Assembly: GCA_003142185.1 (NCBI GenBank)
Contig: PLOR01000095.1
Span: forward strand, 1-64,000
Length of the DNA stretch: 64,000 bases
Source of the DNA: Bryobacterales bacterium
GTDB taxonomy: Bacteria > Acidobacteriota > Terriglobia > Bryobacterales > Bryobacteraceae
Direction: 5' to 3'
Under the pieces are notes generated by a model. The model saw only the letters and a program-made list of their open reading frames with translations. It had not been told where the DNA came from and made no database searches. Of this stretch, positions 6,021 to 27,279 are shown one piece after another (position 1 is the stretch's first letter; every line of letters begins with the position of its first letter). Position numbers and translations under genes: made by a program.

Positions 6021-6646
6021 CGAAGCTGTTTCAGACCGTGTGCTTGGCTCTCCCGGAGAAATGGAGAACTTGGTCTAACTCCGCGGGCTTCTTTCTCCTG
6101 GTGCACGTGAGAACTATGTTTCTACTCGGCTGGGCCATTCTCCTGGCGGTCGGCGGCTACATCATCCACGAGCGCGTACCGGTCAAGCCAGCGCCAGGCC
6201 ACGCCGGTGCGGCGGCGGCAACGGGAACGCCGCCGGCGCATTGGACCGCCGCGCACGATTTGCCCCTCAACTGGCGCATTGAGGAGCCGGACATCGTTTC
6301 CGCTGGGGCTCTCGACCTCAAGCCTCTGTCGGGAAAGTATCTCCACCGGCCGATCGCCAAGGGCCAGCCCATCGTACCTTCGGATCTGGAGGCCGAACCC
6401 AGTGTGCCCGACAGCGGAGCGACGCTGCTGTACCTGCTGCCGCTCGCCGCCGGCGATGAGAGGGCGTTGAACGCCGGCAGCCACATCGACCTCTTCGACG
6501 GTGCGATCGTCGTAGTGGGCAGAGCCGGAGTGGCCGCTGTGCGTTGCAAGACAACCTGTGAGGCGATCGTGCAAGTCTCGCCGCTCGATCAGGAGCGGTT
6601 GAGAAACTCCGACCCCAAGAAGCTGGAGTGGGTATTGCGCAAATAA
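6017..6646 (+). CDS. Single-pass membrane protein with SAF-like domain
   Basis: 209 aa from GTG 6017, overlapping the previous stop by four bases. One membrane helix near residues 25-48, a Pro/Ala-rich linker, and a segment (about residues 85-130: LNWRIEEPDIVSAGALDL...GKYLHRPIAKGQPIVPSDL) with the pattern of SAF domains as in CpaB/RcpC and FlgA-type proteins ('aG.vl......G....r.i..G..i...dl'). In those families the SAF domain sits in the periplasm of pilus or flagellar assembly systems. Here there are no pilus genes next door, so the role is open. Confidence 0.6.
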   Translation: MTKLFQTVCLALPEKWRTWSNSAGFFLLVHVRTMFLLGWAILLAVGGYIIHERVPVKPAPGHAGAAAATGTPPAHWTAAHDLPLNWRIEEPDIVSAGALDLKPLSGKYLHRPIAKGQPIVPSDLEAEPSVPDSGATLLYLLPLAAGDERALNAGSHIDLFDGAIVVVGRAGVAAVRCKTTCEAIVQVSPLDQERLRNSDPKKLEWVLRK

Positions 6647-6660
6647 CATGGAGAGGACTA

Positions 6661-7143
6661 ATGACAAATCCATCATGGCGGGAAATCAAATGGGCCAAGG
6701 TTCCGGCCAAACCGGACGGACTATGGACAGTAGTTCTGGAACACATCTCCGGCCCGCGGCTGCTGCGCGTTTCCGTTAAAGACAAGGATGAGAAGAATGC
6801 CGAGGTGCCTGTCAAGTGGCGGCCCAGCAAGACCGAAGAATGCGGAGCCAACGGCATTCCGAAAGACCCCTCCAACCCTCCTAGCACCGCCGCCACCCTG
6901 ATCGCTTCCGCGCCTTACGGCGCGCTGGTAGGAAAACTCGGGGGGAGCACGGCCGACCTCCCCGAGACCGGCGCCAGCGGCCCCTACAGCGGCCGCAAAG
7001 CCTTCACCGCCGGAGCGTACTGCGTGGTGACTCTTGCCGCGAGCGATGGAGGCCCGCTCTTTTTGACCATGAATGATGCCCCCGCATCCTTCACCGCCCA
7101 CTCCGGCGAACTCACGGTCTTCATCGAAGAGGCCCCCCTTTAA
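6661..7143 (+). CDS. PA-IL lectin-like protein
   Basis: 160 aa from ATG 6661, with GGAG seven to eleven bases upstream; an in-frame start at 6628 overlaps the previous gene and has weaker support. The C-terminal half (SAPYGALVGKLGG..., AYCVVTLAASDGGPLFLTMNDAPASFTAHSGELTVFIEE) follows the PA-IL-like galactose-lectin fold pattern, where the NDxxxxxxxxG loop contributes to calcium and sugar binding. No signal peptide is visible. It continues the seven-gene run. Confidence 0.6.
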   Translation: MTNPSWREIKWAKVPAKPDGLWTVVLEHISGPRLLRVSVKDKDEKNAEVPVKWRPSKTEECGANGIPKDPSNPPSTAATLIASAPYGALVGKLGGSTADLPETGASGPYSGRKAFTAGAYCVVTLAASDGGPLFLTMNDAPASFTAHSGELTVFIEEAPL

Positions 7144-7233
7144 CCTGCAAGCCCTTAGGCATATACTAAATGGGACCCGGGAGTCCAAGAAGGAAATCCC
7201 GTTTCAAAGTCAAGGGAAAGGAGAAAGGCGAAA

Positions 7234-7512
7234 ATGGGCACACCGTCAAGTCCGGCGCTGGCGTCATCCCAATACCACGGCGTGGTTCATTACCAGGCCG
7301 GCTACTGCTTTCTGGAAATCCCCAATCTGCCGGCCTGGGCCCTGCTCATGTACGATCCGGCGCATAACCAGCCCTTCGACGCTAACATCGCGGCAGGCAC
7401 GATGACAAACATGGCGCAGCATTACCAGGAAGGCGACAGCGCGACTCTGTCCGGCGTTATCATCGAGCAAGAGGCGCTGGGCGAATCGAGACCGGTTCTC
7501 CATCTGGATTAG
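7234..7512 (+). CDS. Small hypothetical protein
   Basis: 92 aa; ATG 7234 is preceded by AAAGGAGAAAGG, a strong ribosome site. No signal peptide, no membrane segment, no recognised family. It lies 90 bases after the lectin-like gene and ten before the large secreted protein, so it belongs to the same run. Confidence 0.55.
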   Translation: MGTPSSPALASSQYHGVVHYQAGYCFLEIPNLPAWALLMYDPAHNQPFDANIAAGTMTNMAQHYQEGDSATLSGVIIEQEALGESRPVLHLD

Positions 7513-7522
7513 TGGAGTCAGC

Positions 7523-10438: not shown

Positions 10439-11707
10439 TCAGGCAGCGTCAAGAACTTCGGCCGCACGCCTCGCTTGTTGGTCGATTGCCGTGTTCAATG
10501 CGGGTGGATCTACATCCATCTCCAGATCTGGTAAGACACCCTGCCCTTCGAGGCATTTGCCGTTGGACGTGTACCAACCGAAGACGGGCACGCGTAACCA
10601 GTACCCGGCTCCGACTCTCTGGTTCACAGCTCCGAGGACATTGCCGGCGGTCTTGGTGCCGACGATCGTCGCCAGACGGTTTTCTGAGGCGAAGCTCGCG
10701 AGCATCTCGGCTGCGCTGTTGGTCCATTCGTTCACGAGAATGGCGACTCTGCCGTGAAACGGCTGGGGCCCTAGCCCTTGGGTAAGGAGCATGACGGACT
10801 TGTCGCGAAGGGCGAAACGGGCGAGGGCGAACATGAACTGGCGTGTCGTTTGCGGCATCGGAACACGCGGCAGGGAGTCTCGGGTGTACCCTCTGCGGAG
10901 GCGGGTCGGCGTCAGGCTGTGGCCGATCGGGATCCGACCGGCGCACAGGTAACTCGCGAGACGGGCGAACCCCAAACTGCCGCCGATGTTCCCGCGCAGA
11001 TCAATGATGAGCCGGTCGCAGCCTTGGCTTCTGAGATCCCGAATTGCAAGGTCGAGTGCGTTCGCGAAGCTGATTCCTGTGGGACCAGGGAAGAAGGGGA
11101 TCTTGAGAAGCCCGGTTTTGGGAGCAGCGACTCTATGAATCGGACTCTTGGGTTCGACGATAGGCGGCCGGTCTTTGGTGCCCTTTTTGAATGGAATGCT
11201 GACGGTGATTTCGCGTGGGTTTTCACCCAGCGCGCTTGAGATGGCAATCTTGTGCGTTTCGCCGATTCTGAATGGGGGCATCGCTGGAGGCGCGTAGGGA
11301 GTCCCGTCGACGGCGACCAACATATCGCCCGGCTTGATGCCAGCAAGGTGCGCTGGACCATCTTCGAAGACATCCAGGAAGTGCCAGCGTTGCTGACCAG
11401 CAGGCCCAAAGGCGCGGACGGTTGCATTGATCGAGTGTTGCGGCAGAAGGCGGTTGGTCTGCTCGTGGTAGAAGACAGTATGGCTGCTGCCAAGTTCCGC
11501 CAAGGCCTTGCGTACCCCATCCTCGAACTCCTCGATGTCTACACCGAGCAGGGAAGGCGATCGCTCGTCAAACCGCTTGGCCCACTCGCCGTAGTTCACG
11601 CCTCCCACATTGAAGTGCTGCTTGAGAATGCACTTCTTGACCGAAGCCAGGATTTGAGTGCGCTGCTTTGGACCTAGAGTGGTGGTTGTCATGTTGGTTT
11701 TAGTCAT
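10439..11707 (-). CDS. PDZ-S41 family serine protease (CtpA/Prc-like)
   Basis: 422 aa from ATG 11707, which overlaps the stop of the upstream CHAT gene (ATGACTAA); the longer frame to 11836 lies inside that gene. A PDZ-like segment covers about residues 95-165 (VFEDGPAHLAGIKPGDMLVAVDG), followed by the S41 protease core with LIIDLRGNIGGS and the catalytic pair Ser331 (NEWTNSAAE) and Lys352 (GTKTAG). Family members cleave C-termini or act in signalling cascades. No signal peptide is visible, so it may be cytoplasmic, unlike typical CtpA. It is the last gene of the sigma/anti-sigma/CHAT operon, which suggests it processes one of those proteins. Confidence 0.85.
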   Translation of the reverse strand: MTKTNMTTTTLGPKQRTQILASVKKCILKQHFNVGGVNYGEWAKRFDERSPSLLGVDIEEFEDGVRKALAELGSSHTVFYHEQTNRLLPQHSINATVRAFGPAGQQRWHFLDVFEDGPAHLAGIKPGDMLVAVDGTPYAPPAMPPFRIGETHKIAISSALGENPREITVSIPFKKGTKDRPPIVEPKSPIHRVAAPKTGLLKIPFFPGPTGISFANALDLAIRDLRSQGCDRLIIDLRGNIGGSLGFARLASYLCAGRIPIGHSLTPTRLRRGYTRDSLPRVPMPQTTRQFMFALARFALRDKSVMLLTQGLGPQPFHGRVAILVNEWTNSAAEMLASFASENRLATIVGTKTAGNVLGAVNQRVGAGYWLRVPVFGWYTSNGKCLEGQGVLPDLEMDVDPPALNTAIDQQARRAAEVLDAA

Positions 11708-14297
11708 GATGTGCAACGGGCAGGTTGGCTGCGCCTTCCAATGTGAAACCCGCCCAATAATATGGAACCGCCGCGGCGCCGTACTGCCGCAACATGTCGC
11801 GTTTCGCGGCAGTAAGCGCCGCCGCAACCGTCTCATGCGCCGCCAGGTGCTTGTAGAACTGCTTCATCAGGAAGAGCGAAAAGGTGTCATCAATCGACCA
11901 AAGGGTTGAGACCACGCTCCGCGCGCCTGCCAGCAAGAACGCACTCGACAACGCGGCAATTCCCTCCTCTCCTTCAATTGGTCCCACAGCCGTATCGCAG
12001 GCCGAGAGAATGACGAGATCGGAATTCAGCCGCAGTTGCACAATTTCAGAAGCCTGAAGAGAACCGTCTTCGCCGGCGGCCGGGTCGCTCAATAAGACCA
12101 GCGCCGAGTGGTTTCGCTCCGTTGTGCTGGCATAGCCGTGTACTGCGAGGTGGATGATTCGGTATTGCGAATTGGCAGCGCTCTTGAAGGCCGATTCGGT
12201 AGCGCGCGATCCGATCAAGAGGAGGTTGCCAGCGCCGGGCAAGGCGGCGTCCGCGGCAATGACTTCGTCCTTTGATGCGGGCAGGTCACTCAGCGCTTCC
12301 GGCTCATAGCCACGGGTGACACTGGCATGCTTCAGTTCGGTGGGACTGTACGGAACGCCGCCCACCGCCAATAGGGCGCGCGCCGCTGACGTTGGAGAAT
12401 GTCTCTGCGACGTGAGCAGATAGAAACTGGTCGCCGACGGCTCGTAAATCACCGTGTGGGTTTCGGCGACGTACCGACCTCCGTTATCGATGAACCCATC
12501 GAACGGTACAAGATGCAGCGGGCCATCACGAACCACGACGAGTTGCCCCTTCCGCATCGCCGTCGGGACTGGCGCAAGAAGCGCATCATACAAGGCGCGC
12601 GCTTCCATTTTGGCCGGTGCCTTGGCCTTCACTGCCTTCAGATATGCCGTAATCAGGGGATCGATGCTTTTCTTGGCCGCGAGCGGCACGCTGCGAACGT
12701 CCGTTCTTGAAATGACGAGGCAATACGAGCGGGGATCAGCTAGCACGTATTCCAAAATGACCGATGAGGGATTGAGACTGTGCTGGACTTGTTCCATGCC
12801 GACCGGGTCGTGCGACTGCGCCTTCAGAATATTGATCTCGGGAGTAATCCAGCGGGCCTGCTCCACCAGGAAGATCTGGTCACGAATCTGGCGAACCTCG
12901 CTGGTTGATCGCGCGCCAGCCAACTTGAGGCGCAGTTCGGAAATTGCTCGTTGGTCCTTCTTCGCCTGCTCGGGAGCGACGGAACCCGCCATAAGCAGGT
13001 CGGTCGTCACACGGCCTCTGACCTGCTCAATGATCGAGTAGGCCTTAGCAGGATCGTTGAATCGATCCGCGACCAGCGCAAAATGTTGCGAGTATAGGTC
13101 GCCGGATGCCTTGATGACGGCTGTTTTCTCGAGGACGCTGGAATAGTCGCCAATCAGTGCATCGACGAATGTCGAGGCGCGATCAAAAACGCGATCCGCC
13201 TCATCATAGTTGCCTTCTTTGGTATCAAGCATGGCCACGGTGAGCAGTCGCCGTGGGACCGACCATGTGTCGCCGCTTTCCTGAGTAGAAATCGCAGCCA
13301 GATTTGCAAACTCGGTCGCCTTCTCCAGTTCGCCGCGGTCCCGGTAGATGTCTGACGCCTGGGCCTGCGCATCCGCGAGTTCTCTGATAAAACCGCCGGA
13401 TTTGGACAATGCCATCACTTGTTGGAGAGCGCGTAGTGCCGCCGCGTCGTCGTGTCGCTGCTTCGCAATGTTTGCTTCGAGCGTCAACACAATGGCCTGG
13501 GCCTGAGGATGGTGTCGCTGCTGCGCCTGTGCCAGAATCTCATCGGCCAACTTCTGGGCAGCGCTTGCCTGGTTCACGTCGATCAAGTTTTCCAAAAGCG
13601 CTTCCTTGGTGAAGAACGGGTACTCAGTGTCTGGAGTCGTGCTGGCGATCTTGAGGGCATTGTTGAAGTACGTCGTCGCGTCTTCGTTCGCGTGCGACTC
13701 GCGAAGGCCGATCCCAAGCATGGTTAAGAAAACGACCTGTGCGGCACCATCACCGTTCTTGGTTGCCTCGGCAAAGGCGCGGGCGACGTTCTTTCCGGCA
13801 GTATTCAGATCGCCGTTGTAGAAGGCGGCCACACCAAGCTGAGCGAGCGCGCGATACTGCCATTTGTTGTTGCCCATTTCCGCTGCGAGCTTCTGCACCT
13901 CCTCCCAATCCTCACGCATTGCACGGGCGTCGATTTCGCCGTCAATGTCGCCCTTGACGATCAGACAGAAGAGACGAAGTTGTTTGTCCGTTTGCAGCAG
14001 GGGATTCTTTTCCAATTCCGAAGCGATCTGCGCAGAAGTTGCGGGCAGGACTAGTTGGTCGATGGTCGAACGGATCTTGCCAAGCTTGGCATACAAGGCG
14101 TTCCGCTCGTCGCCGGCAGCGAGGAACAGTTTCTCAGCCTCGGCAAAATCCTCGCCGGCGTCGTCCCAGTTGTAGAGATCGGCGTAGTGGAGGGCATGAT
14201 CCAGGCGTTCCTGCGCAGAACGGCGGTCCTGTGGGCGCAGTGGCAATGATCCAACGGTCGTCAAGAACAACACGGAGAATAGAGTTAATCGAATCAT
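11700..14297 (-). CDS. Exported TPR-CHAT caspase-like protease
   Basis: About 865 aa. Two starts are possible: GTG 14306, which overlaps the anti-sigma stop (GTGA), and ATG 14297, which has GGAG eight bases upstream; I prefer 14297. The protein starts with a signal peptide-like helix (MIRLTLFSVLFLTTVGSLPL), has tetratricopeptide-like helical repeats over most of residues 30-450, and ends in a CHAT domain (caspase clan CD). In the GTG-start numbering the catalytic pair is His723 (HLAVHGYAS) and Cys770 (ILSACDTAVG); the conserved GEEGIAALSSAFLLAGARSVVSTLW block follows. CHAT proteases cut specific partner proteins, often with death or stress output. Its place between an anti-sigma factor and an S41 protease makes these the likely substrate and partner. 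Confidence 0.88.
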   Translation of the reverse strand: MIRLTLFSVLFLTTVGSLPLRPQDRRSAQERLDHALHYADLYNWDDAGEDFAEAEKLFLAAGDERNALYAKLGKIRSTIDQLVLPATSAQIASELEKNPLLQTDKQLRLFCLIVKGDIDGEIDARAMREDWEEVQKLAAEMGNNKWQYRALAQLGVAAFYNGDLNTAGKNVARAFAEATKNGDGAAQVVFLTMLGIGLRESHANEDATTYFNNALKIASTTPDTEYPFFTKEALLENLIDVNQASAAQKLADEILAQAQQRHHPQAQAIVLTLEANIAKQRHDDAAALRALQQVMALSKSGGFIRELADAQAQASDIYRDRGELEKATEFANLAAISTQESGDTWSVPRRLLTVAMLDTKEGNYDEADRVFDRASTFVDALIGDYSSVLEKTAVIKASGDLYSQHFALVADRFNDPAKAYSIIEQVRGRVTTDLLMAGSVAPEQAKKDQRAISELRLKLAGARSTSEVRQIRDQIFLVEQARWITPEINILKAQSHDPVGMEQVQHSLNPSSVILEYVLADPRSYCLVISRTDVRSVPLAAKKSIDPLITAYLKAVKAKAPAKMEARALYDALLAPVPTAMRKGQLVVVRDGPLHLVPFDGFIDNGGRYVAETHTVIYEPSATSFYLLTSQRHSPTSAARALLAVGGVPYSPTELKHASVTRGYEPEALSDLPASKDEVIAADAALPGAGNLLLIGSRATESAFKSAANSQYRIIHLAVHGYASTTERNHSALVLLSDPAAGEDGSLQASEIVQLRLNSDLVILSACDTAVGPIEGEEGIAALSSAFLLAGARSVVSTLWSIDDTFSLFLMKQFYKHLAAHETVAAALTAAKRDMLRQYGAAAVPYYWAGFTLEGAANLPVAHHD

Positions 14298-14302
14298 TAG
14301 GT

Positions 14303-15007
14303 TCACTCCAAGACCAGCGGGTAAAGGCGCACGGATGAGTTCCGTGATTGAATGGCGACGTTATAGCGGCCAGCCGGAACATCGCGCAGGTCGGTCCTAA
14401 TCTTCAGGGCCTCGGCTGTCCCGTCCCAGGTAGCGGTGCCAGTTGCCTCGGCGACGGATTCATTGGTGCTCGTCCGGAACTGCACAGTGAAGCCTCCGTC
14501 TTCGGTACCGATTGGCAACATTATGGTGAGGTCGAGCCGCGCCCGGGTTAAATGGGGGGGCTCAGTGGGCCGCGGTCGCGGCTGATCTGAGCGGTCAGCC
14601 GTCCAGCTCCTGTAGTCCAGCGTCGCGATGAGCACAGGCGCGGACACCTGTTTGGCAATGGGCTCCTTGTAGTTTGGGCCTTTCGCCGGGCCGTGTAGCC
14701 AGAGGAATCCGAGCACGAGCAGCACCACACAACCCAACATCGCGGTACCAGCATTGCGAATCCGCAAGCGTTGCCGTTGGCGATTGTACTGCTCGAAGCA
14801 GGGAGCACACGTTGCGATGTGATCGACGACGTCGACAAGGCCTGGGAAGTTAAGACGCCGCCGAACGGCGGCCTCGACTGCGCTGGGATCTGGACAGCCG
14901 ATGCGCTCGGGGTTCGCGGAGTTCTCCCTGAGGGCCGCGCCGGCTATTTTGATGAGCCGTCTTTCGACCCGCCGGGCCGGAAGATCGCGTTTCGGTTCGT
15001 CGCTCAT
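14303..15007 (-). CDS. Transmembrane anti-sigma factor
   Basis: 234 aa from ATG 15007, overlapping the sigma stop by one base (TGATG) with GAGGAG upstream; TTG 15010 is the alternative. The cytoplasmic N-terminus holds a zinc anti-sigma motif His63-x3-Cys67-x2-Cys70 (HIATCAPC), followed by a membrane helix near residues 89-105 (AMLGCVVLLVLGFLWLH) and a beta-rich outer domain of about 125 residues. Anti-sigma factors of this kind hold an ECF sigma factor at the membrane until cut or rearranged. The exported CHAT protease encoded next could reach the outer domain. Confidence 0.8.
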   Translation of the reverse strand: MSDEPKRDLPARRVERRLIKIAGAALRENSANPERIGCPDPSAVEAAVRRRLNFPGLVDVVDHIATCAPCFEQYNRQRQRLRIRNAGTAMLGCVVLLVLGFLWLHGPAKGPNYKEPIAKQVSAPVLIATLDYRSWTADRSDQPRPRPTEPPHLTRARLDLTIMLPIGTEDGGFTVQFRTSTNESVAEATGTATWDGTAEALKIRTDLRDVPAGRYNVAIQSRNSSVRLYPLVLE

Positions 15008-15624
15008 CAATCTGACTCCTCGGAGTGACCGGCGCCTTTTGCCTTGCCATTAAGCAACTTCGCACGCACCTTGGCTAGTTCGTAATAGAACTGAGATCTG
15101 GCCTGCTTTCCCGATAAGTGGAACACCAGTCCAATCTCCTCCCAGGAGAAACCCAGAATCCGGAAGTTGAGCATGTGACGGCATTGATCGGGCAGTTGGT
15201 CGATCAGGATTTGCAAACACAGCTCCCATACCATGGCTGCCTCCCAGTCCGGTGCCGTCAGGTGATGGTTCCGCTCCAACTCGCGGAGGAGACCTTCATA
15301 CGTGACGCGGTTTTCCTTCCGGAATTGCTCACGCACTTGATTGCGAAATGCGGCGGCGAAATAGCCCGGAAGATTGCGCTTGACGCTCGGTTCGTCGTGC
15401 AGCCGATTGGAGACCTTAAGCGCTACTCTCTCCACAAGCTGTGCGGCGCAGGCGGGATCGTGCAGTTCCTGTCGGACAAGCTGGTATGCCCACGGCCAAA
15501 GCCGTTCGGCCTCCGCTATAACACGTGGGTCGATTGGCCGGCCCTGTGAATCCCGAGCCCTTATCCAAAGTGGGGGCAGATGCTCGGCTGGCGTCCGCCG
15601 CGGGTCGTGTTGAGGCTCCCCCAT
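15007..15624 (-). CDS. ECF-like sigma-70 family RNA polymerase sigma factor
   Basis: 205 aa from ATG 15624 (TTG 15630 is the longer option). The N-terminal half has a region-2-like helical segment (NLPGYFAAAFRNQVREQFRKENR) and the C-terminal half a region 4 helix-turn-helix (LPDQCRHMLNFRILGFSWEEIGLVFHLSGKQARSQFYYELAKVRAKL). It should direct RNA polymerase to a small regulon and is first in the operon, so it is probably autoregulated. The region 2 signature is divergent from classical RpoE, which makes the exact sub-group uncertain. Confidence 0.78.
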   Translation of the reverse strand: MGEPQHDPRRTPAEHLPPLWIRARDSQGRPIDPRVIAEAERLWPWAYQLVRQELHDPACAAQLVERVALKVSNRLHDEPSVKRNLPGYFAAAFRNQVREQFRKENRVTYEGLLRELERNHHLTAPDWEAAMVWELCLQILIDQLPDQCRHMLNFRILGFSWEEIGLVFHLSGKQARSQFYYELAKVRAKLLNGKAKGAGHSEESD

Positions 15625-15630
15625 AATCAA

Positions 15631-16042: not shown

Positions 16043-16054
16043 GTGGAGGGAAGG

Positions 16055-16984
16055 ATGCACGCTCAGGAGGGAGCACAGTCGAAACGGAGTTCGGCGGATG
16101 AGTGTCAGCCAGATCGCCCACCGAAGAAACGCGGCGATCTCGCTGCGAAGCTCAATCCCCTACTGAAGCCGCGGCTCTCGCCGGGCCAGCCCGGCCGGCC
16201 AAAGGGCGCGAGCAACTACGAATGGACTCCCGAGACCGACAGACTGCTTGGTGATTTGTGCGCAAAATGGGGCGCCGCCAAGGCGAAGAACATCATCGGC
16301 CGTAAGCTGCAGGAAGGCCGACCTCCTACTGAGGCCGCACCCAGACCGGACAGCGTGCGCAAAGCCGTTGAGCGCCGCATGGCTAAGTTAGGAATCTCCA
16401 CAGGACAAAAGCGAAGGAAGCCGGAAGGGAGAAAGGTAAAACGGTGGACAGAAGCTCAGACCACCGCGCTGCTAGGTGCCCTCGGAGCGGATGCAACTAT
16501 CGAATCAATCGCGCTCCGCACGGGGCACACCGTGAAATCTGTCTGCGCGAAGCTTGCGCGCCTCGACTATAGTGTGCACGAAATTCATGGGTTTGCGGCT
16601 TTTACGGCTAACAGTCTTGCGGCCCTTCTTGGTGTTGCACCGCGGCGGATTAGGCGTTGGAAGGAGCGAGGCTGGCTCGAAACGAAGGACCGCAGAATAA
16701 CTGAAAAGTGCCTTGGAAGGTTCCTGCGGGCACATCCAGATCGAATTCCGTTTAACAGCCTCCGACGGGAGGACCAGGTTTATCTTGTCGATCTTGGATT
16801 TCCGAGTCCCGAAGCGACAACCTTCAAAAAGAACGTCCGAGACATTCTGGATGGTATCGGTAGGCAAAGAAAGCCGCGCCGCCCGGTTCGAAGGAGTAGC
16901 GCCGGCGCAATGGACTTCGGCCAGGGCGCGGAGACCCCGGGTGACGATGACGAGGCAACGTTCATTGTTGGGACTTCCGGCTGA
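16055..16984 (+). CDS. Putative DNA-binding protein with Myb/SANT- and MerR-like helices
   Basis: 309 aa from ATG 16055, with GGAGGG just upstream; GTG 16043 is the longer option. The N-terminus is basic and Pro/Lys/Arg-rich. Two segments look like SANT/Myb-type helices (YEWTPETDRLLGDLCAKWGAAKAKNIIG near residue 60 and KRWTEAQTTALLGALGADATIESIALRTGHTVKSVCAKLARL near residue 130). A third, FTANSLAALLGVAPRRIRRWKERGWL near residue 190, looks like a MerR-type winged helix. A basic RKPRRPVRR stretch lies near the C-terminus. The combination suggests a transcription or element-maintenance factor. It is transcribed away from the sigma operon. Confidence 0.6.
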   Translation: MHAQEGAQSKRSSADECQPDRPPKKRGDLAAKLNPLLKPRLSPGQPGRPKGASNYEWTPETDRLLGDLCAKWGAAKAKNIIGRKLQEGRPPTEAAPRPDSVRKAVERRMAKLGISTGQKRRKPEGRKVKRWTEAQTTALLGALGADATIESIALRTGHTVKSVCAKLARLDYSVHEIHGFAAFTANSLAALLGVAPRRIRRWKERGWLETKDRRITEKCLGRFLRAHPDRIPFNSLRREDQVYLVDLGFPSPEATTFKKNVRDILDGIGRQRKPRRPVRRSSAGAMDFGQGAETPGDDDEATFIVGTSG

Positions 16985-17010: not shown

Positions 17011-17973
17011 CTACTCTTCGAAGTGCGCGTCAGCAGCCTTTCGCCACTCCTCAAAGGTAGGCAGGTGATCCGGATATTCGGCGGGCCAGGCCTCGTGACA
17101 ATGCAGTGCATAGCTCCGCATCGCCGGATATGCGGGGTAGTGGGTGACGTGGAAACTCAAAGCTGCGAGCAATTGTTTCTGGTCGGCAATTGCGAGCACG
17201 TGATCGAGCGCCCAATCGTTAAGAGCGCGAACAGCCGCCTTGGATCCGAGGGCAGAAGAAAAGCTGAATCCACTGTACCTATCGGCCAACTCCTTGGAGA
17301 CGAGCGCGGAGGTCGGCCCTTCGATATCGAGCACCAATTCCATCCACAAGGAAAACGTGATCAAGTCCGAAAAGCTGTGGAGCAACTTGTTCCATTCCGC
17401 ATCAGATATCCTCCGGACAGCGTCAAGAACCTCCTGCGCTGGACTAGCGGAATTTGACAGCCGGGCCACGGCCGCAACTTCACACTGCCATTGCGCGAAT
17501 GGGGGAAACTGTTTCGGGGTCGCAGCACGCCACTGCTGGTCGATGTCTTCCCAGTGTGACCACGCCTTCATCGAACGCAGCGACATCGAAGAATAATAGC
17601 GGACCGCATCCAACCAGCCGGCCCGCTTTGCAACGACAAAAATGTTTGTCTCCACCCACCGGCTGACATCCTGCCAAATCCGTGCGCCCGGACCATCCCC
17701 ATTCTTCGCATCTGCCGCGACGTCCCGACGGGCACGGCCCAGGAGGCGAGGCGTTCTGGACCGCATCTCCTGCTCGACCACGGCGGGGATGCTCCCGGCA
17801 GTCTCGACGACGGCGCGCGACCACAGAGCGAAGACCTGCCAGTCGGTGTATTCGTCGGCGGCTTCGGCCAAGCGCTTCCAGGGGACTAGCTTACCCTGCT
17901 CCAAGGCGCAGCGTTCTGTCTGCTGGCGAACTCGGTCCATGATTTCGCCGCGTTGATTCTGCTTCACTGGCAT
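17011..17973 (-). CDS. Hypothetical protein
   Basis: 320 aa; not recognised. Helical, Trp-rich (about 15 Trp), no signal peptide or membrane segment. Internal start at 17940 (MDRVRQQTERC) is possible. It converges with the DNA-binding gene and is divergent from the CPBP protease gene. Codon use and length argue for a real gene, but there is no domain on which to base a function. Confidence 0.55.
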   Translation of the reverse strand: MPVKQNQRGEIMDRVRQQTERCALEQGKLVPWKRLAEAADEYTDWQVFALWSRAVVETAGSIPAVVEQEMRSRTPRLLGRARRDVAADAKNGDGPGARIWQDVSRWVETNIFVVAKRAGWLDAVRYYSSMSLRSMKAWSHWEDIDQQWRAATPKQFPPFAQWQCEVAAVARLSNSASPAQEVLDAVRRISDAEWNKLLHSFSDLITFSLWMELVLDIEGPTSALVSKELADRYSGFSFSSALGSKAAVRALNDWALDHVLAIADQKQLLAALSFHVTHYPAYPAMRSYALHCHEAWPAEYPDHLPTFEEWRKAADAHFEE

Positions 17974-19026: not shown

Positions 19027-22000
19027 ATGAGCCTGCCAACCGTCTTTTCAACCTGCCGTCCCCGAGCCGACGTGCTCGCCGGGACTATCCGCGACGACGA
19101 GTTCATGGCGGATCTCTCCAGGGTCGTCAACGGCACCGCGACCGCCGACTACCTCGACCCGATCACGTTCTTTGCCAAGAGCTACCCCACCCGCGGCATG
19201 AAGGAGCTGCTCAAGGCTGTTTGCCTGCGGCTATCAGGCCGCGGGGGCGAGGTGTCCTCCATCATCCGGCTGGGGACACAGTACGGCGGTGGTAAAACCC
19301 ACTCCCTCATCGCCCTGGTGCACGCCGTCCGCGGAATGAAAGGCGTTCCAACACCCGAAACCTTTGTCGATCCCGCGATTCTCCCGACTGGGACCATTCG
19401 CATTGCGGCCCTCGACGGAGAGAACGCCGACCCCGCCAATGGACTCACGCTGGAGGCAGGACTGCTCGCCCGCTCGCTCTGGGGCGAGATGGCTTACCGC
19501 CTGGCCGGTCGCGCCGGCTACGAGCGGGTTCGGGTCAGCGACGAAAAACATATCGCACCGGGCGCGGACACCATCCGAGAGCTTTTCGGTGGCCAGCCCA
19601 CGCTGATCCTGCTTGACGAGATCTCCGTCTACCTCCGCAAGGTGGAACGCGCGTTTCCGGATGCGTCCAAGCAGTTCGCCGCCTTCATTCACGACCTCTT
19701 CAAGGCCGTGGCCTCCACGCCACAGGTCGCGCTCGTCTACACCCTCGCCGTCGGCAAGGACGACAAAGCCGGCGACGCATATAAAGATGAGAATGAGCGC
19801 GCCGCCGCCGCCATGTCCGAAGCGGAAAGCGTCGCCGTGCGAAGCACCACGCCGCTGAACCCGACCGAGGAAGACGAGACGCCCAACGTTCTACGTGCGC
19901 GCCTCTTTGAAACCGTGGACCTCGACGCTGCAAAGTCGGTGATCGCCGCATACTCCCAGGTTTGGAGTTCCAACCGGGATGCGCTGCCCGCCGATGCTGC
20001 CGACCCGGAACTCCGCGACCGGTTCGCCCGCAGCTATCCGCTCCATCCCAAGCTGCTTGAAATGCTGACCGAGAAAACCTCGTCGCTCAGTACGTTCCAG
20101 CGGACACGCGGCATGCTGCGGTTGTTAGCACGCACGATTCACCACCTCTGGAGAATTCAGCCGCCGGACGCGGCTTCGATCCACACGCACCACATGGACC
20201 CGGCCTTCGAGCCGATCCGCACCGAGATCAACGTCAAACTCGGCCAAGGCCAGTATGCTCCAGCGGTCAAATCCGATGTCGCCGCCGTTGCGGGTGACGA
20301 GCCCGCTCTCGCACAGCGCATCGATGCCCAGAAGTACCCCGGCCTGCCTCCGGTAACGGCCTATGTGGCTCGCACGATCTTCTGGCACACGCTGGCTTAC
20401 GATTCCGCCAGGGGAATCACCGCCGAGCAATTGAAGCTGTCCGTGTGTTCGCCCGCGCTGGAACCGTCATTCATCGAGCAGGCGCGCGTGCAGTTCGTCA
20501 CCGATTCCATCTATCTGGACGACCGCCCAGGTGCCCCTCTGCGCTTCATGGTGGAGCCGAATCTCACCATGATCATCCGCCGAATCATGCGGGACATCGA
20601 CGCTGCCGAAGTTCGCTCCGAACTTGCCGAGCGCATCCGCCAGTTGTTCAGCCTGCCTCGCGGGGAATTCAATGCTGTGCTTTCCCCTGCCGGTCCGTAC
20701 GAAGTGCCCGACGAAGTCGGCGACGGTCGGCCCTTGCTCGTGGTGATGAGTCACGAATCGACTGCGGTACCTCCCGATCTGCGCCAGCCGCCGCCCGACA
20801 TCGCCGAGATCTTCGAGTACAAGGGGGCGGATCGCAAGATCCGCGAACTCAAGAACAACCTCGTCTTCGTCGCGGCCGACGAGCGCACCATTCCGAACAT
20901 GCGCGAGCTGGTGCGCCGCCGACTCGCCCTCGGCTTGCTTCTGAAGCCGGAACATCAGCGCGAACTCGCCGACTACCAGCAGGGTAAGGTCAAGGCCGAA
21001 TACGAGAAGCTGAAGCTGGATGTGGCCATGGCGATTCTCCAATGCTACCGCCACCTCTTCTACCCTTCGAGTTCGCGGATGACCGGTGCCCAGCTCGATC
21101 TGGGGTACACCATCATCGAACTTTCTGGCGCGGGCGATACACCGGGCAATGGCCAGCACCAGGTGGAACGGGTTCTGCACGATCAGAAGAAACTGCTCGA
21201 CGGCGGCGACATTCCGGATTCGCCGCCCTTCGTGCGCGACCAGACCGGCCTCCGGGTGAAGGGAGAAATGACCACCGCACAGATACGGACCGAGTACCGT
21301 CGCGCGCCGAAGCTCTCCATCCTACTGCACGATACGCCGTTGTTCGAATGCATCCGTAACGGCATCGATCAGGGAGTGTTCATATATCGCGAGGGGTCGC
21401 AAGTGTGGGGACCCGGCGATCCGCGGCCCGTCATCCACATCAGCGACAACCACTTCCTACACACCGTCAAAGACGCGGAAGATAAAAAGCTGTGGCCGCG
21501 CGCGGAACCGCTGGGAATCCGTTTCCAGGCCAATCCCACCACCATCGAGCGGGGTGGGTCTTCCGAATTGGTGGTCAGCGTCAAAGGCGGCGTCCCGCCC
21601 TACGCCTACACATCGAATGAACCACAGCTTGCGGCCACTGCAAGCGATCAGGCGACGCAGCAGCTTCGCGTGCGGCCGGAGCAGTCGATGACCTACACCG
21701 TCGAGGTCACGGACAGCCGTGGCCAGCGGCAACAAGCCATGGCCGTGGTGACCATCCGGGAGAAATCGGGCGAGATCCAGCCGCCGGTATTGCCCGGATT
21801 CAAGCCCGCAGAGCCACCGCCGCCGGAACTCACCGCGCAGGGGCCGCTCGCCCAGGCGCTGTCCGATCTGTGGGACAAGGTGCGCAAGGCCAAGGTGGAC
21901 AGCATCGCGAGTCTCACCGTGCGCCTGTTCGAAGCCGGCGCCACGTGGAAGGTGCATCAGGCCATGGCGACGCTCCAGGAGGCGGATGTCACGTGCCATT

Positions 22001-22260
22001 TCGAAGTTGGCATCGAAGCGGACGGTATTGTCGAATTCGAGGTAAACTTCACGGGTCGAGTGGATAAGGCAAACGCAGTGAAATCGTTCCTCGATCCGCA
22101 GATTCGGAACGCGGTTGAGACAGACTTTAAGGCCAGCTACAGCCTGGCTTTCAAGCAGCCGCTGTCGCTGAAGGACAGCAGCGCCGACGCTTTCTCCAAG
22201 AAACTGACGCAGTATGGGGGTGGCGAGGCCTTTGTCGAGGCGGTCGCCGGAAAGGTATAG
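19027..22260 (+). CDS. DUF499-type AAA+ ATPase of a defence operon
   Basis: 1077 aa. The start region matches DUF499 proteins (VFSTCRPRADVLAGTI...DFMADL...YLDPITFFAKSYPTRGMKELL). Walker A is at residues 83-92 (GTQYGGGKTH), and Walker B near residues 193-198 (LILLDE with Asp197, Glu198). An unusual Ig-like beta domain sits around residues 830-905 (FQANPTTIERGGSSELVVSVKGGVPPY...), followed by a Pro linker and a C-terminal alpha/beta domain. DUF499 ATPases occur with DUF1156 methylases and large helicases in phage-defence loci related to BREX and DISARM. It is first of six co-directional genes and abuts the next (stop TAG immediately followed by ATG). Confidence 0.85.
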   Translation: MSLPTVFSTCRPRADVLAGTIRDDEFMADLSRVVNGTATADYLDPITFFAKSYPTRGMKELLKAVCLRLSGRGGEVSSIIRLGTQYGGGKTHSLIALVHAVRGMKGVPTPETFVDPAILPTGTIRIAALDGENADPANGLTLEAGLLARSLWGEMAYRLAGRAGYERVRVSDEKHIAPGADTIRELFGGQPTLILLDEISVYLRKVERAFPDASKQFAAFIHDLFKAVASTPQVALVYTLAVGKDDKAGDAYKDENERAAAAMSEAESVAVRSTTPLNPTEEDETPNVLRARLFETVDLDAAKSVIAAYSQVWSSNRDALPADAADPELRDRFARSYPLHPKLLEMLTEKTSSLSTFQRTRGMLRLLARTIHHLWRIQPPDAASIHTHHMDPAFEPIRTEINVKLGQGQYAPAVKSDVAAVAGDEPALAQRIDAQKYPGLPPVTAYVARTIFWHTLAYDSARGITAEQLKLSVCSPALEPSFIEQARVQFVTDSIYLDDRPGAPLRFMVEPNLTMIIRRIMRDIDAAEVRSELAERIRQLFSLPRGEFNAVLSPAGPYEVPDEVGDGRPLLVVMSHESTAVPPDLRQPPPDIAEIFEYKGADRKIRELKNNLVFVAADERTIPNMRELVRRRLALGLLLKPEHQRELADYQQGKVKAEYEKLKLDVAMAILQCYRHLFYPSSSRMTGAQLDLGYTIIELSGAGDTPGNGQHQVERVLHDQKKLLDGGDIPDSPPFVRDQTGLRVKGEMTTAQIRTEYRRAPKLSILLHDTPLFECIRNGIDQGVFIYREGSQVWGPGDPRPVIHISDNHFLHTVKDAEDKKLWPRAEPLGIRFQANPTTIERGGSSELVVSVKGGVPPYAYTSNEPQLAATASDQATQQLRVRPEQSMTYTVEVTDSRGQRQQAMAVVTIREKSGEIQPPVLPGFKPAEPPPPELTAQGPLAQALSDLWDKVRKAKVDSIASLTVRLFEAGATWKVHQAMATLQEADVTCHFEVGIEADGIVEFEVNFTGRVDKANAVKSFLDPQIRNAVETDFKASYSLAFKQPLSLKDSSADAFSKKLTQYGGGEAFVEAVAGKV

Positions 22261-22692
22261 ATGAAGCCCCTGTATGAACTGCGCATGATCGTCGAATCGA
22301 CGAGCGTGTGGCGCCTGGAGATCTGGCAGGCGACCTCGCCCGCCACCCCGCGACTGAAAACGCCGGAGCACGTGGCCACCATTCAGGGACCGGGCTTGCG
22401 TATCGCCGAGAACCGCCTATTGAAGCGGTTGGCTCGGGAGAAGATCGTGCTCGGCTCGCTGAAGCCGGGAAAGTCGAAACGGTGGCCGCTCGATGAAGAG
22501 GTGGCGCTCACGTTGGGATTGCTGTTTCGCGTGCTGGCGCCGATGAAGAACCTGGACCGCATCCGCCAGGTGGCCGAGGGAGTGGAGAAAATGTCGCGCG
22601 AGGAGGCGGGTTACTGGCTCGGCATGGCGCTGCACCGTGAGTACCCGCGGCGAGTGCTCGCGTCGTTAAGGATACTGCTGACAACGCCATGA
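22261..22692 (+). CDS. Small accessory protein of the defence operon
   Basis: 143 aa, starting right after the ATPase stop and ending with an ATGA overlap into the methylase gene, so translation is coupled on both sides. It has a beta-rich N-terminal half and a helical C-terminal half (VALTLGLLFRVLAPMKNLDRIRQVAEGVEKMSREEAGYWLGMAL). A small protein in this slot is common in DUF499/DUF1156 loci, as far as I recall; the sequence itself gives no enzyme motif. It may bridge ATPase and methylase. Confidence 0.7.
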   Translation: MKPLYELRMIVESTSVWRLEIWQATSPATPRLKTPEHVATIQGPGLRIAENRLLKRLAREKIVLGSLKPGKSKRWPLDEEVALTLGLLFRVLAPMKNLDRIRQVAEGVEKMSREEAGYWLGMALHREYPRRVLASLRILLTTP

Positions 22693-25568
22693 GCAAGAGA
22701 CGATTGATCGAGGACTGGCTGCCAATTGCGGCGTTAAGCGAGGAATGTGTCCGCGAGCGGCGGTCGATGACTGCACTTCCGCCAACATATTACCTGCATG
22801 TGTGGTTTGCACGGCGGCCGCTCGTTGCGAGCCGTGCGGCAATTCTGGGCTGCCAGCTACCGGCAGACTCCGACCGCGGCAAGTTCTTACACGATCTAGG
22901 AATCCATGGCGATCCGGTGAAGACGAAGGAGAGGATTGCTCGGGCCAAGATCACCGGTGAAGATCTTGGTTCTGATCCATACGGCTACCCGCGGGCATTC
23001 CAGTTCCTGCCGCCAGCGGATGGGAAGCGCTCGAGCGTTCTTGACCCCACTGCGGGTGGTGGCAGTATTCCATTCGAGGCTGTCCGGTTGAATTCGGAGA
23101 CAATCGCGAACGATCTCAACCCAGTTGCTGCCTTGTTGCTGAGGACAACCGTCGAGCTTCCGTTGCAGTTCGGCGCTGATCTGCTGCGACGATTTGGGGA
23201 ACTCGCGGCGGAATTCATTCAGCGCGCAACGCCCCACTTTGTCGGCATTTTTCCTAAAGAGCCCGCCGGTGTGTTTACCGTGGATGGCTATCTCTGGGCA
23301 CGGACTGTCACCTGCCCGTACTGCGGCGGGGTCGTGCCGTTGTCGCCGAACTGGAAGCTCGATAGCTCCGGGCAAATTGGAGTGCGGCTGGTTCCGGAAA
23401 ACGGCCGCATACGCTTTGACATCGTCGACCGCGAAGCAGATCACTCACCAGGCACGGTGAAAGGCGGGGACGGTACGTGTCCTTTCCCCGATTGCCGCCG
23501 GAGCATCGATGGCGACGAGATCAAAGCACAAGCTCAGGCTGGACGGATGGGCCACCAGCTTTACTGTGTCGTCTACAAAGAGCGCCGGATCAAAGGCTAC
23601 ACCAAGAACGGCAGCCCGAAACTCGAAAAAGTCCGTGCCTTTCGCGCACCTCGCCCGGAGGATGACGTAGAAGCCCTGGTTCAACAGAAGATCGCCGAGA
23701 AAATGCCGCTTTGGCAAGCGCGCAATATAGTTCCGGATGAGGAGATCGACGCACTCTCGAACTACGACCGCGGTCATCGGCTCTACGGGATCAGTAAGTG
23801 GACGCAGATGTTTTCAGCGCGACAGTTGTATGGGCATTGTATCAGCGTTGAGATATTCCAAGACATGCTGAATGAGGTCGCCCGTACCGACCTGGATCGG
23901 GCCGCGATGACGTACCTCGGGCTATCGATTGACAAACTGCTGAATTACAACGCCATCGCAGTGCGATGGATTCCGCAACGCGAAGTCATCGCGAGTGTCT
24001 TCGATCGCCACAATTTCGCGTTCTACTGGAGCTACACGGAGATCGCTCCTGCTATCACCGGACTCGGATACGACTGGGCAGTCGAACAGACGGGAAAAGC
24101 ACTACGTGAGCTGACCGAGCTTCTGGGCCAATCCTCCGATGGACGACTCGAGTTCGCCTCCCCTCGGCCAAAGCCACCAGTTCGCATCACCTGCGCCTCG
24201 GCCGACGCGCTCCCACTCGCAGATTCGTCCGTTGACTGCGTCGTGATGGACCCACCGTATTACGACAACGTCATGTACGCAGAGCTGTCCGACTTCTTCT
24301 ATGTGTGGCTCAAGCGAACGGCGGGCTTGCTCTATCCGGAGTTGTTTACGTCCCATCTCACGGACAAAGACCGTGAAGCCGTCGCCAATGCCGCAAAGTT
24401 CGCAGGGCAAAAGGGCGGCGCGAAGAACCTTGCCGGCCGCGATTATCAGCGCCGTATGGCATCCATCTTTAAGGAACAACGCCGCGTCCTGAAGCCCGAC
24501 GGCATCATGACCGTGATGTTCACCCACAAAGCAGCAGGTGCGTGGGATGCACTGGCCAGCGGCCTGATCGAGGCAGGATTCACCATTACTGCATCCTGGC
24601 CAGTCAACACTGAGGCTGAAGGCAGCCTGCACATCCGCGAGAAGTCCGCGGCGCGTTCCACCATCTTCCTCGTCTGCCGTGTTCGTGAAAGCGTTCCGGC
24701 GAACTCGGAATCGCGGTACTGGGAGGAAGTGGAGCCTACGGTCCGCCAAGCTGTCCGCGCGAAAGTGAAGGAGTTCCAGGAAGCCGGTATCGGCGGCATC
24801 GATCTTTATCTCGCCTGCTTCGGACCGGCATTGCAGGTGTTTACCGAGGCGTGGCCGCTCACGCGCGGCACGGCGCGTCCGCAGCCGAAGACTAAGCAGC
24901 GCGACCTGTTCGAAGAGTTCGACCCGTACGCCGTCCGGCCGGAGGACGCGCTCGAAGCTGCTAGGCGAGAGGTGAAGCAGTGGCGCATGGAGCAACTGGC
25001 CACAGTGAAACGCCAGCACCATCTGGACGCGCTGACCGAGTGGTACGTGCTCGCCTGGGATGCATTCCGTGCACCACGCTTCCCCGCCGATGAAGCTCTG
25101 AAACTGGCTCGCGTCGTCGGGCTCGACTTCGATCAGGACGTAAAGAAGAAGGTCTGCGAAGTGAAGGGCGATGATGTGATTCTGTGGGATAGCATCACGC
25201 GCCACCGCAAGGGCAGCCTCGGGCACGTCAGCGAAGAGTGTATGCTCGACACGCTGCACTGGGCGGCGAAGACAGGACGCGAACAGAACACCGGCGCCGC
25301 ACAGAGCTTAATCGACAGTGCACATCTGATCGGGGACCCGACTTTGCTGACCGCGCTTGAGGCACTGCTCAACGTGCTGCCGCCAGTAGTTCCGTCAGGG
25401 GGCAAGAAGAAACCTGACGCCAATCTCGCGGGCGCTGCGAACGACTTCGAAGCGCTGGAGCGCTTGCGCAAGCTGGCATTCACTGAAACGGTGCCGGCGC
25501 CGAAGATTCCGGAACAGATCCCGCTCGAACTTGCGGATGGGGCAGACGGCCAGGAGGAGGACGCTTAA
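22689..25568 (+). CDS. DUF1156 adenine-type DNA methyltransferase
   Basis: 959 aa, ATG 22689 overlaps the previous stop. The N-terminus is a typical DUF1156 start (RLIEDWLPIAALSEECVRERR...LHVWFARRPLVASRAAILG). SAM-binding motif I is DPTAGGGSIPFE at residue 119, and the catalytic motif IV is DPPYYDN at residue 521. A zinc-ribbon-like insert (CPYC at residue 209 and a later C-P-x-x-x-C pair) lies between. DPPY marks an amino-methyltransferase, most likely N6-adenine. In related defence systems such a methylase marks host DNA so that the helicase/nuclease part ignores it. Confidence 0.88.
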   Translation: MSKRRLIEDWLPIAALSEECVRERRSMTALPPTYYLHVWFARRPLVASRAAILGCQLPADSDRGKFLHDLGIHGDPVKTKERIARAKITGEDLGSDPYGYPRAFQFLPPADGKRSSVLDPTAGGGSIPFEAVRLNSETIANDLNPVAALLLRTTVELPLQFGADLLRRFGELAAEFIQRATPHFVGIFPKEPAGVFTVDGYLWARTVTCPYCGGVVPLSPNWKLDSSGQIGVRLVPENGRIRFDIVDREADHSPGTVKGGDGTCPFPDCRRSIDGDEIKAQAQAGRMGHQLYCVVYKERRIKGYTKNGSPKLEKVRAFRAPRPEDDVEALVQQKIAEKMPLWQARNIVPDEEIDALSNYDRGHRLYGISKWTQMFSARQLYGHCISVEIFQDMLNEVARTDLDRAAMTYLGLSIDKLLNYNAIAVRWIPQREVIASVFDRHNFAFYWSYTEIAPAITGLGYDWAVEQTGKALRELTELLGQSSDGRLEFASPRPKPPVRITCASADALPLADSSVDCVVMDPPYYDNVMYAELSDFFYVWLKRTAGLLYPELFTSHLTDKDREAVANAAKFAGQKGGAKNLAGRDYQRRMASIFKEQRRVLKPDGIMTVMFTHKAAGAWDALASGLIEAGFTITASWPVNTEAEGSLHIREKSAARSTIFLVCRVRESVPANSESRYWEEVEPTVRQAVRAKVKEFQEAGIGGIDLYLACFGPALQVFTEAWPLTRGTARPQPKTKQRDLFEEFDPYAVRPEDALEAARREVKQWRMEQLATVKRQHHLDALTEWYVLAWDAFRAPRFPADEALKLARVVGLDFDQDVKKKVCEVKGDDVILWDSITRHRKGSLGHVSEECMLDTLHWAAKTGREQNTGAAQSLIDSAHLIGDPTLLTALEALLNVLPPVVPSGGKKKPDANLAGAANDFEALERLRKLAFTETVPAPKIPEQIPLELADGADGQEEDA

Positions 25569-25575
25569 CGTACAG

Positions 25576-26217
25576 ATGTCCGCCAACCTGAACCCTGAAA
25601 AGGCGCTGATCTTCCGTATCGTTCACCGCGACGGTCTACCGTGGATCTTCGAGAATGGTCTGCACGCCAAGAATGGAGAAATGTTCGATCCGCAGTATCG
25701 GAACATTGGTAACCCGGACCTGATTGACCGGCGTTCCCGGCGCGTGGTTCCCATCCCACCCGACGGTACGCTGAGCGACTACATACCCTTCTACTTCACG
25801 CCGTTTTCTATCATGATGTACAACATCAATACCGGCTATGGAGGCATCAAGCATGTGCCGAACGATGAAATTGCGATACTGGTTTCGTCGCTGCATCGCG
25901 TGAAGAAGCTCGATATACCTTTTGTATTCACGAATCAGCACGCGTATCCGGCCGCGGCGGAGTTTTTCAGCGATCTGTCGGATCTCGATCGCATCGATTG
26001 GCCCCTGCTACAGAGCCGGAACTTTAAACACGACCCCGATGACCCGGGAAAAAAGGAACGTTATCAGGCCGAGGCTCTGATCTGGAAGCACCTGCCACTC
26101 GATGCCTTGCTCGGTGTATGCTGCTATAACAAGGCAGCGAGTGCATGGATTCAGTCCGAGACCGCTCGGCGGCAGCTTCAGATTCAAATCAATACGCAAC
26201 CTGGCTGGTACTTTTAA
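25576..26217 (+). CDS. darT: DarT-like DNA ADP-ribosyltransferase toxin
   Basis: 213 aa from ATG 25576, seven bases after the methylase stop; the longer frame overlaps that gene. It matches the DarT family (DUF4433): IFRIVHRDGLPWIFENGL near residue 10, SDYIPFYFTPFSIMMYNI near residue 70, and the Glu of YQAEALIWKHLPLDALLG (Glu166) in the position of the catalytic Glu. DarT transfers ADP-ribose from NAD to thymidine in single-stranded DNA and blocks replication of host or phage. DarG follows immediately. What is unusual is the setting: a toxin placed inside an ATPase-methylase-helicase operon. Confidence 0.88.
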   Translation: MSANLNPEKALIFRIVHRDGLPWIFENGLHAKNGEMFDPQYRNIGNPDLIDRRSRRVVPIPPDGTLSDYIPFYFTPFSIMMYNINTGYGGIKHVPNDEIAILVSSLHRVKKLDIPFVFTNQHAYPAAAEFFSDLSDLDRIDWPLLQSRNFKHDPDDPGKKERYQAEALIWKHLPLDALLGVCCYNKAASAWIQSETARRQLQIQINTQPGWYF

Positions 26218-27279
26218 ATGATTGAGTTTCGTCAAGGAAATTTGCTGCAAGCGCCGGTGGAGGCCCTTGTGAACACCGTTAACACCGTCGGCGTGATGGG
26301 CAAGGGTATTGCCCTGATGTTCAAGGAGGCGTTTCCCGACAATTTCCGCGCTTACGAGGAGGCCTGCAAGCGCAAGGAAATCCGGGTCGGACGCATGTTC
26401 GTCACAGAAAACCTTGCCCTGGAAGGCCCGCATTGGCTGATCAACTTCCCCAGCAAGAAGCACTGGCGCCAACCGTCGAAGCTGGAATGGATCGTCGAGG
26501 GACTGAAGGATCTTCGGCGTGTGATCGAAGAGAAGAAGATCGGATCGATCGCGCTGCCGCCTCTCGGGTGTGGGAACGGCGGGCTCGACTGGAGCGACGT
26601 GCGCCCGGAGATCGAGAGGGCTCTGGGGGCGTTGGAATCAGTGGAGGTTGTGGTATTTGAACCAACCGAGAAGTACCAGAATGTGGCGAAGCCTACCGGA
26701 GTGGCGAAACTGACTCCGGCCCGCGCGCTGGTGGCGGAAATGGTGCGGCGGTACTGGGTGTTGGGTATCGAATGCACCTATCTGGAAGTTCAGAAGCTCT
26801 GTTGGTTCCTGGAACGCACGATTCATCAACTGGGCATCGACGACCCGCTGGATTTGCGATTCTCCGCCGACAAATATGGGCCATACTCGGACCGCCTTCG
26901 GCATCTGCTGAACGGTCTGGATGGCAGCTACCTGCACTGCGACAAACGATTGAGCGACGCCGGCCCCTCGGATACCATCTGGTTTGACGAGGAGCGCCGG
27001 GCGTTCCTCGATCTCTATCTGAAGCAGAACGAGCAGCGCCCGTTGCAGGAGGTGCTGGATCGCACCGCCGCATTGATTGACGGGTTCGAATCGCCGCTTG
27101 GCATGGAACTGCTGGCAACGGTGGATTGGCTAATCCAGCGCGAACAGTGTGAGGCGAGCCTCCCCGCAATTCGGGAAGGATTGGCGCGGTGGCCCGCAGG
27201 TCCGGACGCGGCCGAACGCAAGTTGCGGCTTTTCAATGACCGCTTGATCGGGTTGGCGCTGGAACGGTTGAACGCGTGA
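26218..27279 (+). CDS. darG: DarG-like macrodomain antitoxin
   Basis: 353 aa; ATG follows the DarT stop with no gap. Residues 1-155 form a macrodomain with NTVNTVGVMGKGIALMF and LPPLGCGNGGLDW, the loops that bind ADP-ribose and remove it from DNA. The C-terminal half (ARALVAEMVRRYWVLGIECTYLEVQKLCWFLER...) corresponds to the DarG domain that binds and inhibits DarT. Both halves look complete, so the pair should be functional. Its stop overlaps the following helicase frame by GTGA, tying it to the operon. Confidence 0.88.
   Translation: MIEFRQGNLLQAPVEALVNTVNTVGVMGKGIALMFKEAFPDNFRAYEEACKRKEIRVGRMFVTENLALEGPHWLINFPSKKHWRQPSKLEWIVEGLKDLRRVIEEKKIGSIALPPLGCGNGGLDWSDVRPEIERALGALESVEVVVFEPTEKYQNVAKPTGVAKLTPARALVAEMVRRYWVLGIECTYLEVQKLCWFLERTIHQLGIDDPLDLRFSADKYGPYSDRLRHLLNGLDGSYLHCDKRLSDAGPSDTIWFDEERRAFLDLYLKQNEQRPLQEVLDRTAALIDGFESPLGMELLATVDWLIQREQCEASLPAIREGLARWPAGPDAAERKLRLFNDRLIGLALERLNA

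Follow-up and report, generated by a model that had tools for sequence, protein, structure and literature searches.

The locus described here raises the question of what a TPR-CHAT protease does when it is encoded next to a sigma factor, a membrane anti-sigma factor and a second peptidase. The window, that is, the whole stretch analysed, comprises 64,000 nucleotides of a Bryobacterales contig (PLOR01000095.1), from an acidobacterium of soil. Four ORFs, all intact and on the minus strand, encode an ECF-like sigma factor (15007..15630), a membrane anti-sigma factor read from the ATG at 15007 (14303..15007), an exported TPR-CHAT protease (11700..14306) and a PDZ-S41 peptidase of 422 residues that has no signal peptide (10439..11707). 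The junctions, in the order sigma/anti-sigma, anti-sigma/CHAT and CHAT/S41, are TGATG, GTGA and an 8-nt overlap, in agreement with the initial annotation, which had described four genes on one strand overlapping at each junction. An ATG at 15624 is another possible start of the sigma gene, and an ATG at 14297 an alternative start of the CHAT gene, with which the overlap with the anti-sigma gene disappears. Residue numbers of the anti-sigma factor run from the TTG at 15010.

The identification of the first gene as a sigma factor stands in part. Its product matches NCBIfam sigma70-ECF (3.9e-7, over residues 42-192, with a score of 29.8 bits that misses the curated cut-off of 42.9) and, weakly, Pfam region 4 (0.0096), and its assignment draws also on its position relative to the anti-sigma gene: in all 36 loci in which a sigma was found, it lies directly upstream of the anti-sigma gene on the same strand. 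A promoter dyad common to the sigma genes was searched for upstream of them and dropped, nothing exceeding shuffled sequence.

The anti-sigma factor carries the zinc-ligand motif HIATCAPC (H64, C68 and C71; 14798..14821, minus strand), 96-98% conserved in 55 relatives, and one predicted transmembrane helix at about residues 86-106 (14693..14755, minus strand; hydropathy, and an AlphaFold helix at 69-106). Among 42 relatives, HxxxCxxC and a transmembrane segment are each present in 40. With this motif, the membrane anchor and the adjoining sigma gene, the protein is a zinc-finger anti-sigma factor (ZAS), as had been proposed; it has no Pfam match itself, nor does any member of its family match zf-HC2 in Pfam. 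Beyond its cytosolic zinc-finger part and the membrane helix, residues 158-234 (14309..14539, minus strand) are modelled by AlphaFold as an outer Ig-like beta-sandwich of seven strands if 127-132 is counted, with a pLDDT of about 87-95 and weak PDB matches to Ig folds. A chagasin-type inhibitor of cysteine proteases was considered for this domain and rejected, the matches to EhICP2 and chagasin being weak (E 0.005-0.02) and mixed with ordinary Ig folds. At one relative locus (L038, 12525-13307) the anti-sigma factor has lost all three zinc ligands and retains the outer domain and the Arg discussed below.

The third protein matches Pfam CHAT at 7.2e-61, together with TPR, and has a signal-peptide-like N-terminus, MIRLTLFSVLFLTTVGSLP (14241..14297, minus strand). 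By hydropathy, the N-terminal hydrophobic segment is strong in 36 of 54 relatives and intermediate in nine, and several of those without a clear segment are truncated fragments. His723 (12138..12140) and Cys770 (11997..11999), both on the minus strand, are present in 52/52 relatives that cover the positions. The CHAT domain and this His/Cys dyad place the protein among the CHAT peptidases of clan CD, and the earlier reading of an exported protease with a His/Cys pair is borne out by the Sec-type signal and the invariant dyad. Two acidic residues, Asp594 (51/53) and Asp807 (52/52), are candidates for the S1 pocket, though both are possibly general to CHAT. The CHAT gene is broken into two ORFs in L169, L181 and L204, and in L167 (10043-13901) it is split by a transposase-like ORF of 353 residues, a second copy of which, beginning in the same way, is found at 6461-7522.

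The S41 peptidase required a revision of its chemistry. The family (Pfam S41, 1.9e-27), the PDZ domain and the nucleophile Ser331 (10715..10717, minus strand; 56/57 relatives) hold as annotated, and the proposed catalytic residue Lys352 does not, being Lys in only 30/57 relatives. In S41A enzymes, as in CtpA of H. pylori (S300/K325), the catalytic Lys comes 25 residues after the Ser, a spacing also obtained from an ungapped HMMER alignment to P. aeruginosa CtpA; the equivalent position is Asn356 here, and Lys in only 5/57 relatives. The protein is therefore not a Ser-Lys processing peptidase of the S41A type. Upstream lies a conserved pair, Ser75-His76 (11480..11485, minus strand; each in 52/57), which is a candidate for the general base and whose counterpart we take to be S745-H746 of tricorn. 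Glu387 is conserved in 56/57. The arrangement, a His before the PDZ domain, the Ser and a Glu about 58 residues after it, fits the CPAF/tricorn pattern at the level of sequence, with His76 analogous to His105 of the CPAF triad His105/Ser499/Glu558 (PMC8787135). The AlphaFold model (pLDDT 83) has D1 protease as its best overall fold (Z 26, versus 18.5 for CPAF and 12.7 for tricorn), so the Ser-His-Glu assignment rests on residues and not on the fold ranking. Thus the enzyme resembles both CtpA/CtpB/D1P and CPAF/tricorn in fold and Ser nucleophile, and differs from CtpA/CtpB/D1P in having no catalytic Lys, a Ser-His-Glu set like that of CPAF, and no signal peptide. Since an N-terminal hydrophobic segment is absent in 56/57 relatives, the S41 peptidase is probably cytosolic, linked to CHAT, which goes against the view that it acts in the compartment where CHAT does. 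No plasmid copy was found in PLSDB, which gave a single distant, partial match.

Protease, anti-sigma and sigma factor are already combined in known circuits. In the type III CRISPR system CalpL-CalpT-CalpS, a Lon-SAVED protease acts with an anti-sigma and a sigma factor; the logic is shared with the module described here, but that protease is cytosolic and Lon-type, and cyclic oligoadenylate is its switch. Closer in its parts is Craspase of type III-E CRISPR, in which Csx29 (TPR-CHAT), Csx30 and CASP-sigma form a circuit where cleavage of the inhibitor frees the sigma factor (PMC10028731). The two systems share a TPR-CHAT protease and an ECF-type sigma together with its inhibitor, whereas here CHAT is exported, the anti-sigma is a membrane zinc-finger protein with an outer sandwich, and an S41 partner is present. 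The suggestion of a Craspase-like logic free of CRISPR holds as to the logic, and no array-like repeats occur in window positions 1-40000, but not as to membership: the Csx29 model NF041237, for which the cut-off is 300 bits, scores 32.9, over the CHAT part only, no Cas family was found among the neighbours scanned against PADLOC and no Cas7-11 at the locus, and the module does not belong to type III-E CRISPR. Like the sigma E system RseA/DegS/RseP, the module has a single-pass anti-sigma that would be cut first on the outside and then presumably by a site-2 protease, and the host genome has a gene for an RseP-type M50 protease; the predicted first cut would be made after Arg by a cysteine CHAT protease, unlike that of the DegS-type serine protease. 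In ECF54, an ECF sigma with CHAT, subtilase and carboxypeptidase neighbours, proteolytic control has been proposed (PMC8999054). The presence of CHAT genes near an ECF sigma is common to both, but ECF54, whose named model comes from Geodermatophilus, is proposed to lack an anti-sigma (PMC8999054). Sigma/CHAT proximity (ECF54, PMC8999054) and CHAT control of a sigma (type III-E CRISPR, PMC10028731) are thus already known. The open-access literature that we found joining CHAT, anti-sigma and ECF consists only of the ECF54 review and the CRISPR work, and describes neither an exported CHAT/anti-sigma/S41 set nor the Arg site presented below. A 15-kb Bacteroidota plasmid (Aureibacter pAT7, NZ_AP025312.1; L325, 1197-5399) carries an operon of a sigma, a single-TM protein and a CHAT, which differs from the module in the outer domain of its single-TM protein.

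A single residue points to the anti-sigma factor as the substrate of CHAT. The stretch between the membrane helix and the sandwich is variable except for Arg140 (14591..14593, minus strand), which is Arg in 57/58 relatives with an entropy of 0.13 bits, while the surrounding linker is mostly at 2.5-3.5 bits, and which is directly followed by Gly or Ser in 53/57. A divergent test set was drawn from 52 loci whose CHATs belong to other clades, where 25 anti-sigma-like proteins lie within 4.5 kb of the CHAT; 21 are of the sandwich type, and the remaining four, of a different build, were set aside by eye. All 21, at a mean identity of about 24%, have an Arg 18-35 residues past the membrane helix, followed by Gly in 17. 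The best Arg column reaches 0.33-0.86 in alignments with shuffled tails (20 trials) and 0.75 in a heterogeneous set of 12 control anti-sigma tails taken away from CHATs. A test for R[GS] anywhere in the linker was discarded as non-discriminating, since 8/12 controls also carry it; only the alignable Arg position separates the CHAT-linked anti-sigmas from the controls. All three CHATs of the host genome have an anti-sigma-like zinc-finger gene nearby. Cleavage after Arg is known from other peptidases of clan CD, namely separase, gingipain-R and MALT1, in which acidic residues of the S1 pocket hold the Arg (PMC4626109, PMC4357240). Csx29, as reported, is not an Arg cutter: its site lies between residues 427 and 429, and deletion of M427 blocks cleavage (PMC10028731). 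From conservation, we predict that CHAT cuts the anti-sigma at Arg140-Ser141, with Arg140 as the P1 residue; a structural role could also explain why Arg140 is conserved.

Partial correlations of tree distances over the 33-34 loci holding all four genes are consistent with this prediction. The strongest is that between S41 and CHAT (0.67-0.69), which may come from adjacency. CHAT correlates with the outer part of the anti-sigma (0.56 [0.35,0.72]) and not with the inner part (0.02), the sigma correlates with the inner part (0.46 [0.24,0.66]), and the value for S41 and the anti-sigma is about 0. We take the chain S41-CHAT-outer anti-sigma, on one side, and inner anti-sigma-sigma, on the other, as support that falls short of proof. 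The earlier proposal that CHAT cuts the outer part of the anti-sigma agrees with the invariant linker Arg and with this co-variation, which is weaker with simple distances (0.41 [0.15,0.61]; after dereplication, 0.30 [-0.02,0.53]).

We therefore lean, if only slightly, towards a protease-controlled ECF sigma switch in which exported CHAT cuts the anti-sigma at Arg140 and frees the sigma. Judging from its family, the zinc-finger half of the anti-sigma would keep the sigma at the inner membrane. CHAT, placed outside the membrane by its signal sequence, would sense or bind an envelope signal through its TPR region and cut the outer linker after Arg140, and the housekeeping RseP-type M50 protease and cytosolic proteases would complete the release. 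The freed sigma would then transcribe its own operon and, on conjugative elements, probably a divergent virB operon, as the gene layout suggests.

How far the module is kept bears on this reading and on its rivals. The S41 subfamily occurs in 43/250 genomes of the class of the host and, outside it, in a small number of genomes from other classes; the anti-sigma occurs in 46 of the 250, and both together in 38 (Fisher, 1.6e-31). The named close relatives are all Acidobacteriota (Bryobacteraceae, Sulfotelmatobacter, Acidobacteriaceae and Luteitalea). CHAT lies on the same fragment as S41 in 57/57 loci, as CHAT>S41 within 100 bp in 46 and further apart in three, as S41>CHAT in three and convergently in five. 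Within 8 kb of these 57 S41 genes an anti-sigma is found in 42 and a sigma in 33, many of the missing neighbours being due to contig ends. The gene set is thus conserved across the class, well past close relatives, and is found in other classes of the phylum. Despite this shared presence, the expected conservation of order and overlaps did not hold, because sigma/anti-sigma and S41 share a strand in 20/42 loci and lie on opposite strands in 22/42; only sigma>anti-sigma and, usually, CHAT>S41 are kept. A PadR regulator and a large ADOP-type permease occur in or beside the module in L187, L196, L177, L179, L202 and L062.

A CHAT-S41 unit so often transcribed separately is what would be seen if the proteases were outputs, the sigma/anti-sigma pair answering some other signal and inducing both of them as effectors, for instance in defence or competition between elements. 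The window copy adjoins Hma and DarTG defence genes, and some sigma/anti-sigma loci beside virB have no CHAT nearby, which also fits. Without any contact between CHAT and the anti-sigma, however, neither an invariant Arg nor co-variation between CHAT and the outer domain would be expected, and we regard this explanation as unlikely. The Hma-like island (window 19027-30590) consists of HmaC/DUF499 (19027-22260), the HmaB methylase (22689-25568) and a helicase (27276-30590), with a DarG macro-domain gene (26218-27279) and what is probably DarT (25531-26217) inside it. Between island and module lie an HTH protein divergent from the sigma and outside the core (16043..16984, plus strand), with relatives in 11 loci and no confident Pfam match, and a 320-residue protein without a Pfam match (17011-17973), with relatives beside the module in seven loci. 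The four module proteins themselves gave only weak PADLOC matches as members of defence systems (BovA, 22.7 bits; TPR).

Many copies of the module lie among genes of mobile elements, and Pfam confirms VirB4, TrbI/VirB10, CagX/VirB9, integrase and ParA at the loci of relatives. Integrase, T4SS or ParA genes are found in 20/27 class-wide loci of at least 15 kb and in 0/20 stretches of 19 kb picked at random in the genomes of these loci, a comparison somewhat biased because the models were built from the test loci. It might accordingly be argued that the genes merely ride mobile elements together and do not act on one another. We think this improbable, since the quartet survives many rearrangements, in different classes and, in the window, outside elements, and since the chain-like correlations respect the topology. 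In 17/65 places the anti-sigma lies within 6 kb of VirB4, and in 17/17 the two point away from each other; S41 is also present in 11 of these, and the genomes concerned represent several families and include some close relatives. Two loci of other classes (L248 and L251) have the same divergent virB layout, and one further locus (L247) is tandem and not divergent. For the virB-linked copies, the simplest interpretation is that the sigma governs the neighbouring conjugation operon, but the promoter search gave no shared motif. The window has no match to VirB4, VirB9, VirB10, integrase or ParA, the host genome has no VirB4, and the window copy is not part of a conjugative element (ICE) at this locus. 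Sigma/anti-sigma pairs of the same type, with neither CHAT nor S41 in the surrounding sequence covered, occur in L238, L233, L234 and L236; the last three are head-to-head with virB4, in genomes that carry S41 elsewhere.

Least probable, in our view, is a processing pair in which S41 matures or controls CHAT before or after export and the anti-sigma is a bystander, in the manner of the TPR adaptor and S41 pairs LbcA-CtpA and NlpI-Prc, of which solved complexes exist; the frequent adjacency of the two genes and their leading partial correlation would suit it, but adjacency alone can yield correlation, and it is CHAT and not S41 that has a signal peptide.

Returning to the sigma switch, the open-access literature that we found names no substrate of exported CHAT proteases outside CRISPR. 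A predicted substrate and a single residue reduce the question to a one-mutation experiment. More tentatively, and with less confidence than we place in the switch itself, exported TPR-CHATs may be general, CRISPR-free first-cut proteases that activate ECF sigmas by cutting their anti-sigmas at an invariant Arg in the outer juxtamembrane linker; conjugative elements of Acidobacteriota would have acquired one branch of these proteases, that with a Ser-His S41, for the control of their own T4SS. If the predicted cut is right, the logic of Craspase, the release of a sigma factor by a CHAT protease, would operate independently of CRISPR and across the cell envelope. This would also suggest a way in which a large and little-studied soil phylum may switch on conjugation.
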